From Acidobacteriota bacterium (GTDB lineage Bacteria; Acidobacteriota; Terriglobia; Terriglobales; Acidobacteriaceae), in contig QIAU01000135.1 of assembly GCA_003225055.1 (NCBI GenBank), positions 62,001 to 126,000 of the forward strand: a stretch of DNA of 64,000 bases, in the 5' to 3' direction. The first letter of the stretch is position 1, and every line of letters begins with the position of its first letter. Positions 37,751 through 42,409 of this stretch are shown here, one piece after another. The position numbers and the translations under genes were made by a program. Under the pieces are notes generated by a model. That model saw nothing but the letters and a program-made list of their open reading frames with translations, did not search any database and was not told where the DNA came from.

Positions 37751-38953
37751 ATGCCCGCCATGCCCGAGAGATCCAGCGATTCCGCCCTCGCCACCGTGAC
37801 CATCTCCGCCCGGGGCACGTTGCGTCTAAGGAGCGGCCACGTCTGGGTCTATCGCTCTGACATTCTCTCAGCAGACGGCATTGCTCCAGGCGCGCTGGTC
37901 AAGGTCTCCGATCCCCAAGGCAAATCGCTCGGAACAGCTCTCTACAGTACTGCCTCTCAGATCGCCATCCGCCTGCTTTCCAGAGGTCGTGTCGAAGATT
38001 TTCCAGCTCTTCTTCGCCAGAGAATCCAGGAAGCGCTGGGTTATCGAGACCTTGTGGTCAGAGACACCGACGCCTACCGCATCGTGTTCAGCGAGGCCGA
38101 CTTCCTTCCGGGCCTGATCGTAGATCGCTATAACGACATTGTTGCGTTCCAGGTTCTCACTCAAGCCATGGACAGCGAGGCTGCTCGGCAAGCTCTGGTC
38201 TCCGAACTCTGTGACCGACTGAACCCTGCTGCCGTCGTAGAACGCGTCGATCCGCGCGTGCGCCGGCTCGAGCAATTGTCTCCGCGGAATGCAGCACTCG
38301 TCCACGGCGAGAATACCAACACGATCTTCACCATGAACGGGGTGCGCTTCCACTACGCGGCTCTCGAAGGTCAAAAAACCGGTTCCTTCCTTGACCAGCG
38401 CGAAAACTATGCTGCCGCCGCCCAGTATGCCCACGGCGACGCCCTCGATGTGTTCTGCTACCAAGGAGGTTTTGCCCTGCACTTGGCCCCGCACTGCTCG
38501 CACGTCACGGGCGTGGACAGCTCTCGCCCGGCCCTCGAGGTGGCAGATCAGAATGCCACGCTGAATGGACGCGAGATCGAATGGCTGGAGGCCAACGCTT
38601 TCGACCTGCTTAAGGACTACTCCGTGGCCGGCCGTCAATTTGACACTATCGTTCTCGACCCGCCCGCCTTCGCCAAAACCCGAAAAAACCTCGATACCGC
38701 GCTGCGCGGCTATAAAGAGCTAAACCTGCGTGCTCTGAAAATGGTCCGCCCAGGGGGAATTCTGGTCAGCTGCAGCTGTTCCTACCACGTCAGCCAGGCC
38801 GAGTTCCTGCAGATGATTTCCGAAGCTGCCCTCGATGCCCGTAAAACCCTCCGCATCTTAGAAGTTCGCGGGCAGGCAAAGGACCATCCCGTGCTGCTAA
38901 CCGTCCCGGAAACCAGCTACCTGAAGATCGTAATATGCAGACTAAGTAATTGA
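37751..38953 (+). CDS. rlmI: RlmI-like 23S rRNA (cytosine-C5) methyltransferase
   Basis: 400 aa. An N-terminal PUA domain (TLRLRSGHVWVYRSDI) is followed by a central EEHEAD-like domain (RIVFSEADFLPGLIVDRYND). The Rossmann methyltransferase has GQKTGSFLDQREN, DVFCYQGGFALHLA, DPPAFAKTRKN and GGILVSCSCSYHV. The usual catalytic Cys context is preserved in SCSCS. It modifies large-subunit rRNA in relatives. Its stop is directly followed by the inverted repeat in front of hsp20. Confidence 0.9.
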   Translation: MPAMPERSSDSALATVTISARGTLRLRSGHVWVYRSDILSADGIAPGALVKVSDPQGKSLGTALYSTASQIAIRLLSRGRVEDFPALLRQRIQEALGYRDLVVRDTDAYRIVFSEADFLPGLIVDRYNDIVAFQVLTQAMDSEAARQALVSELCDRLNPAAVVERVDPRVRRLEQLSPRNAALVHGENTNTIFTMNGVRFHYAALEGQKTGSFLDQRENYAAAAQYAHGDALDVFCYQGGFALHLAPHCSHVTGVDSSRPALEVADQNATLNGREIEWLEANAFDLLKDYSVAGRQFDTIVLDPPAFAKTRKNLDTALRGYKELNLRALKMVRPGGILVSCSCSYHVSQAEFLQMISEAALDARKTLRILEVRGQAKDHPVLLTVPETSYLKIVICRLSN

Positions 38954-38956
38954 AAA

Positions 38957-39015
38957 TTAGTGTAATAGATTGCTTGACAGTAATAAACTCATATTTTATG
39001 CTTCTATTACACTAA
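38957..39015 (+). promoter_or_regulatory. hsp20-clpB promoter flanked by a 13-bp inverted repeat
   Basis: TTGACA (38974-38979) and TATGCT (38997-39002) are 17 nt apart, a good housekeeping promoter. TTAGTGTAATAGA (38957-38969) and its perfect reverse complement TCTATTACACTAA (39003-39015) lie just outside the two boxes, so a dimeric protein could bind both and close the promoter. It is unlike CIRCE and unlike the HspR HAIR consensus. Confidence 0.7.
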
Positions 39016-39073
39016 ATTTCTCATCTAAACGAAGCGCATAAAGCTTCTAGCAAGATTCGAAGGAGGTTGAGCT

Positions 39074-39565
39074 ATGACAGTTCTGACTCGTTGGGATCCT
39101 TTCCGTGAATTCTCCACCCTGCAGGACCGAATGAACCGCCTGTTCCAGGAGTCATTTGGCCGCGAGGGCCGGGAAGAGTCTCTGACCACCACCAGTTTTG
39201 CGCCGGCGGTTGACGTCTATGAAGATGAACACAATGTCACCTTGAAGATCGAGGTGCCCGGCATCGACGAAAAGGACATTGATGTCCGCGTCGAAAACAA
39301 CACTCTGACCGTGCACGGCGAGCGCAAGTTCGAGAAGGAAGAGAAGGAAGAGAACTACCGTCGTATTGAGCGGCAGTACGGAAGCTTCATCCGTTCCTTC
39401 ACCCTGCCGAACACGGTTGATAGCGAGAACATCTCTGCCGACTACGACAAGGGCGTGCTGAACATCCGCCTGGCCAAGAAGGCGGAGGCCAAGCCGAAGC
39501 AGGTCAAGGTGAATGTTGGTAGCCAGAAGACGCTCGAAGTAAAGGGCGCGGGCAAAGCCGCGTAA
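39074..39565 (+). CDS. Hsp20/alpha-crystallin small heat shock protein
   Basis: 163 aa. AGGAGG at 39061-39066 is 7 nt before the ATG. The N-terminal arm MTVLTRWDPFREFSTLQDRM is followed by the alpha-crystallin domain from VDVYEDEHNVTLKIEVPGID to GVLNIRLAKK, including the L-x-I/V-like terminal motif region. Prevents aggregation of unfolded proteins and hands them to ClpB/DnaK. Paired with clpB downstream. Confidence 0.95.
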   Translation: MTVLTRWDPFREFSTLQDRMNRLFQESFGREGREESLTTTSFAPAVDVYEDEHNVTLKIEVPGIDEKDIDVRVENNTLTVHGERKFEKEEKEENYRRIERQYGSFIRSFTLPNTVDSENISADYDKGVLNIRLAKKAEAKPKQVKVNVGSQKTLEVKGAGKAA

Positions 39566-39664
39566 AGATGCTTGCGTAGGGACAGGCGCCCTCGCCTGCC
39601 CGCCGAGCAAAGCTGGGCACTTTTCTGCGGGAGCGGCAGAGTTGCTGTCTCCCGCTTTTGATTT

Positions 39665-39686
39665 TGTAATCTTGTAATCTTGTAAT
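39665..39686. repeat. Triple TGTAATCT tandem repeat between hsp20 and clpB
   Basis: TGTAATCTTGTAATCTTGTA: three 8-bp units. A GGGCGGTT...AATCGCCC hairpin follows directly. Confidence 0.6.
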
Positions 39687-39772
39687 TGGGCGGTTTGTTC
39701 TTGAATCGCCCGATAACAAAATTGCCGGTTACAAAATCGGAAACAAGCTCGTAGCAATTAGGAGTAAACCCC

Positions 39773-42409
<2,637 letters not shown>

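Follow-up and report, generated by a model that had tools for sequence, protein, structure and literature searches.

Genes and features of the locus

The window, the whole stretch of 64,000 nucleotides that was analysed, is part of a 7.4-Mb acidobacterial genome and carries a gene for a small heat-shock protein followed by clpB. The features of the promoter region and of the two genes are as follows.

38957..38969, plus strand: left arm of an inverted repeat, TTAGTGTAATAGA; half-site-like on the minus strand; found in this genome only among the genomes compared
38973..38993, plus strand: HAIR-like core, CTTGACA-GTAATAA-ACTCATA; the left half includes the -35 box; 10 of 14 HAIR positions
38974..38979, plus strand: -35 hexamer TTGACA, from promoter match and alignment with relatives
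38997..39002, plus strand: -10 hexamer TATGCT, from promoter match and alignment with relatives
39003..39015, plus strand: right arm of the inverted repeat, TCTATTACACTAA; contains a half-site-like RYRCTAA element (39009-39015) near the expected transcription start
39074..39565, plus strand: hsp20, small heat-shock protein (PF00011, 86.8 bits)
39773..42409, plus strand: clpB (TIGR03346, 1349.8 bits, above cut-off)

A sequence-only reading of the window had described a TTGACA-N17-TATGCT promoter between two perfect 13-bp arms, and both are present. The promoter matches 10 of 12 consensus positions at a spacing of 17 nt; its -35 box begins 4 bp past the end of the left arm, and its -10 box is directly abutted by the right arm. 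The interval given for the repeat in that reading, 38957-39073, starts correctly but ends too late, 39073 being the base before the hsp20 ATG; the repeat stops at 39015, or at 39020 in its extended form. On the side of the promoter away from hsp20 lies a gene resembling 23S rRNA (cytosine1962) methyltransferases (384.8 bits, under the cut-off of 575). The gap between hsp20 and clpB contains, at 39660-39738, a perfect 10-bp inverted repeat (GATTTTGTAA / TTACAAAATC) that encloses smaller repeats, and three direct repeats resembling TCTTGTAAT.

The inverted repeat

The arms pair perfectly over 13 bp as an inverted repeat, 33 nt apart, and extend to 18 nt with one mismatch (38952-38969 / 39003-39020). 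The window has no other perfect 13-bp inverted repeat whose spacer is 60 nt or shorter; 20 block shuffles averaged 0.1. When the local intergenic DNA was shuffled 20,000 times, 8 shuffles yielded such a repeat; an origin by chance is unlikely. A hairpin of both arms in RNA is impossible from this promoter, because the left arm precedes the -35 box.

The dyad was looked for in 87 related hsp20 promoters, where the upstream flank and the right-arm region reach a best 13-mer complementarity of 7.86 on average, compared with 8.02 after flanks had been exchanged between rows (standard deviation of the means 0.09); in the register of the window itself the values were 4.21 and 4.43, respectively. The window reached 13 and the runner-up 10 among the window and these 87 relatives. 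In the genome, single arms were matched 31 times with up to two mismatches, versus 72 times for the reversed control, and among the matches listed only the two of the window lie near each other. The sequence-only reading had staked its proposal beforehand on recurrence of the motif; the dyad is not conserved in the 87 relatives, and the search of its own genome revealed no second pair of arms among the matches listed. As far as seen, the framing dyad is thus a feature of this genome only. The left arm, aligned to relatives, sits in a variable AT-rich stretch and therefore probably arose by local changes there.

That reading had taken the dyad for a good candidate operator of some heat-shock repressor not yet identified, which would bind at both arms, perhaps with looping of the DNA. 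The rarity of such a repeat in shuffled DNA and the way in which the arms frame the promoter speak for this, but it is made very unlikely by the missing conservation, by the absence of a second pair among the arm matches listed in the genome, and by the presence of a known repressor, HspR, with a fitting core site. Perfect inverted repeats can also delimit a mobile element that has inserted. Here, however, the arms enclose a conserved promoter, the right arm can be aligned to relatives, and the genome showed no second pair among the matches listed; the alignment leaves an insertion with practically no probability, and it was rejected.

A HAIR-like core and its conservation

The consensus of HAIR is CTTGAGT-N7-ACTCAAG (PMC7464140, PMC6102357; both sources available in part). 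The earlier statement that HAIR is not matched is right for the two arms taken as a dyad; it fails for the DNA between them, which agrees with HAIR at 10 of 14 positions, differs at four and has the correct spacing of half-sites. Taken alone, this match is weak evidence for a HAIR site. At least 10 of 14 positions are reached by 32 of 88 hsp20 promoters, compared with 116 of 1760 shuffles (6.6%). The match at dnaK promoters is strong: 38 of 43 reach at least 10 positions, versus 55 of 860 shuffles, where 43 is the number of loci fetched and not of all genomes with dnaK. Twelve of the 43 read CTTGACA-N7-ACTCAAG (12 of 14 HAIR positions), with both differing bases inside the -35 box, and in many relatives the dnaK promoter carries a better HAIR than the hsp20-clpB promoter.

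Upstream regions from 110 loci entered the alignment, namely the window, 80 loci of a first set and 29 relatives of a second set. Record titles in the first set are Acidobacteriota, Acidobacteria, Acidobacteriales, Acidobacteriaceae, Terriglobia, Terriglobales and Candidatus Sulfotelmatobacter. The genomes of the second set partly overlap those of the first, and as the sets share genomes and ancestry, the promoters compared are related by descent. Alignment scores were at least 29 for 87 regions and lower for 8, while 15 regions, several of them minus-strand loci, had no anchor. After 13 loci had been re-tried, 5 were added, which gave 88 non-redundant rows including the window.

The element TTGAYA-N7-RCTMA was found upstream of hsp20 in 71 of 80 loci of the first set, among them each of the 59 that show a ClpB signature downstream; the other nine of the 80 all carry a different leader. 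In the second set it was present in 21 of 29 loci, or in 24 if RCTMA-N2-TTTTA without a -35 box is accepted. The eight misses are L040, with a variant -35 box but with RCTMA present, L041, L053, L054, L055, L057, which was read at the wrong place within a clpB-like gene, L059 and L060. In 83 non-redundant aligned rows the C, the T and the final A of RCTMA are invariant and keep a constant distance to the -35 box. This column conservation is inflated, because rows were kept partly by their likeness to a hand-written consensus; the counts of 71/80 and 21/29, whose misses are named, are less biased. The conserved element looks like a HAIR operator merged with the -35 box.

Two variants were seen on the side. 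At one hsp20 promoter of genus g9 (L263, genome G210) the merged -35 form is replaced by CATGAGC-N7-GCTCATG, a palindrome of the HAIR type that is perfect. Six dnaK loci (L184-L189), all from the sister family f2, have their two highest-scoring HAIR-like sites at a distance of 26 bp.

The same element elsewhere in the genome

Five places in the genome fit a pattern drawn from relatives' hsp20 promoters; one is in the window, one at the dnaK promoter and one before another hsp20 (contig C103). The open reading frames next to the remaining two were not recognised as chaperones by reading, no family scan being applied. The reversed control gave six matches, so there is no excess in count, and it is the positions of the matches that carry the point: an element common to the hsp20-clpB, dnaK and another hsp20 promoter was found unprompted. 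A genome-wide search with the HAIR pattern at up to two mismatches was uninformative (275 matches, of which the first ones were listed, and 411 for the reversed control).

HspR and HrcA

The genome encodes an HspR of 132 amino acids on the strand of dnaK and dnaJ, past these two and a gene judged transporter-like by reading. It scores 105 bits in NF047375, equal to the curated cut-off, and 105.5 bits in the genome search. Of 226 genomes of the order, 222 have an HspR match at E <= 1e-20, a threshold at which 3 of 14 named control genomes also match; 84 of the 226 exceed the curated cut-off. In tables of 41 genomes, 38 have both HspR and dnaK, and in 29 of these the two are no more than 10 kb apart.

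No HspR was detected in four of the 226 genomes (G009, G224, G197 and G227), each of at least 95% completeness. In G197 and G227 dnaK, too, is without a match at E <= 1e-50. The dnaK promoters of G009 and G224 are still HAIR-like (10 and 11 of 14 positions), and G009 retains RCTMA-N2-TTTTA at hsp20; its contig continues beyond dnaK (L266) with no HspR match on it. A close DnaJ of the type found beside hspR is missing from all four (best identity 37-39%, versus 63-65% in two controls). If HspR is really lost in G009 and G224 while the sites are kept, this counts against HspR; an unassembled segment does not.

HrcA is also encoded (TIGR00331). With up to three mismatches the CIRCE pattern matched three places in the genome, versus five for the reversed control; the best two, which were inspected, precede groES (1 mismatch) and hrcA (2 mismatches), and the third is in contig C209. 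No such match lies on the contig of the window, the hsp20-clpB promoter included. Binding of HrcA at a degenerate CIRCE of this promoter might be suggested by the hrcA gene itself and by the right-arm element of relatives (e.g. GTGCTAA), which resembles the CIRCE half GAGTGCTAA; it is highly improbable given the empty promoter and the location of the genome's two best CIRCE matches before groES and hrcA.

Leaders of the hsp20 genes

The right arm is followed by a CRTCNRA motif in 57 of 88 hsp20-clpB leaders (CATCTAA at about 39022-39028 in the window), and hairpins of varied sequence often come after it. The first 45 nt of the leaders fold with a mean z of -1.5 relative to mononucleotide shuffles; the window's own leader forms a modest hairpin (z -1.65). 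Since RYRCTAA lies at the start of the transcript and is accompanied by this motif and folding, part of its conservation may be RNA-based. The only known RNA family matched over promoter and leader was mir-4803, at 17 bits with a gathering score of 90, which was taken as chance.

The conserved bases could then be features of the core promoter and early transcript, i.e. spacer, start site and 5' leader, with no repressor site at all and with the dyad as a chance product of an AT-rich stretch. The conserved bases do fall in the promoter and at the very start of the transcript, and the leader motif and the folding fit. Such an account is nevertheless unlikely: dnaK has the same RCTMA at the same distance, often as the full ACTCAAG, which a general preference for certain spacer bases fails to explain.

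A different leader was observed at hsp20 paralogs that have no HspR element. It is common and nearly invariant, TCAGGTCCTCTGAACTAAGTCAGCCCATCTGAAG, is mostly predicted to form a two-part hairpin, and in many cases is followed by TCCTCTT, which is able to pair with the Shine-Dalgarno sequence AAGGAGGA. Its occurrences are as follows.

Upstream of hsp20: L072 (from about 4929), L089, L090, L092, L102, L126, L133, L139, L140
In the genome of the window: L154, from 1659
Before other genes: L155, 1444, minus strand; L089, 1779
Additional copy: L140, 9060, minus strand

One leader of genome G190 in this comparison duplicates that of L072. Rfam gave no match in the three loci searched, and a piece of the motif occurs in one paper, listed under a strawberry gene family. 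The leader is a candidate RNA thermometer or other leader RNA, and may be more interesting than the HspR-type operator.

The arms as possible accessory half-sites

A half-site matrix was built from the right half of the core in 87 relatives. It yields 6.0 bits for the left arm and 4.7 bits for the right, values reached at 94 and 181, respectively, of about 128,000 window positions on both strands. At the place of the right arm, 51 of the 87 relatives score at least 0, where shuffles do so in 3.9% on average and in 9.2% at most, and a conserved RYRCTAA element directly 3' of the -10 box coincides with this arm. Upstream flanks score at least 0 in 19 of 87 relatives, no excess over shuffles (24%). 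When a stricter matrix is used, the right-arm column hardly exceeds column 3 inside the promoter, a chance-like match; in the window itself that promoter column scores 2.3 and the right-arm column 1.9. From these matrix results an accessory half-site is probable at the right arm and no more than possible at the left.

Proposed mechanism

The hsp20-clpB promoter is likely to be an HspR-repressed heat-shock promoter with a HAIR-type site. The action of a heat-shock repressor here, suspected by the sequence-only reading, gains support from the conservation, but the best candidate is the known HspR encoded in this genome; the operator is probably that of HspR/HAIR rather than of an unidentified repressor. 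What computation showed here comprises the conserved elements, the presence of an HspR gene that is often linked to dnaK, and the occurrence of the element at dnaK and another hsp20.

By analogy with HspR of other bacteria, from which binding, repression, release by heat and binding at the arms are inferred, an HspR dimer (MerR family) would bind the HAIR-type site, whose left half CTTGACA holds the -35 hexamer and whose right half RCTMA lies within the spacer between the -35 and -10 boxes. Bound HspR would block RNA polymerase. The half-site-like element of the right arm, just past the -10 box, would extend the operator downstream, and in this genome the upstream mirror copy, the left arm, would give it symmetry over about 69 bp. 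Heat or unfolded protein would release HspR, and hsp20-clpB would be transcribed together with dnaK.

More tentatively, HspR in this order may read an extended operator of repeated RYRCTMA half-sites, in which a HAIR merged with the -35 box is joined by a position-fixed half-site after the -10 box and, here, also by a mirror half-site upstream; this is possible, though rather doubtful.

Comparison with known systems

Most likely the locus is mostly an ordinary heat-shock switch in little-studied soil bacteria, and the modest point is the merging of HAIR with the -35 box; a conserved HAIR can go unnoticed where its left half doubles as a -35 box. The predicted layout in soil acidobacteria has two repressors, HspR acting on dnaK and hsp20-clpB, and HrcA on groES and hrcA. 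No description of such a layout was recognised in the literature on HspR in acidobacteria, as covered by titles and the openings of abstracts, with subscription journals mostly outside this coverage.

HrcA/CIRCE (TTAGCACTC-N9-GAGTGCTAA) also occurs in this genome, before groES and hrcA; the hsp20-clpB promoter has no CIRCE. With the Streptomyces HspR/HAIR regulon, as described in the available parts of PMC7464140 and PMC6102357, the locus shares an HspR-family repressor gene, HAIR-like half-sites spaced by N7, and dnaK and clpB as targets, predicted ones here. It differs in its left half, CTTGACA, which the -35 box dictates, in the right half at hsp20-clpB, where ACTCATA often stands instead of ACTCAAG, and in an HspR-family score that sits at the curated cut-off.

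In H. pylori and C. jejuni, too, HspR operators have an imperfect HAIR-like centre over the promoter and weaker flank sites (PMC6102357, PMC7464140; parts available). In H. pylori they cover about 70 bp, and more than 70 bp around the HAIR-like centre is given for cooperative binding on both sides (PMC6102357, part available). Binding at the flanks is footprinted in those species according to the same portions, whereas here the flank is known from sequence, with a conserved candidate half-site downstream. If the extended operator is real, the flanking half-site would be a sequence determinant of cooperative HspR spreading, which is left undefined in the available part of the H. pylori work (PMC6102357).
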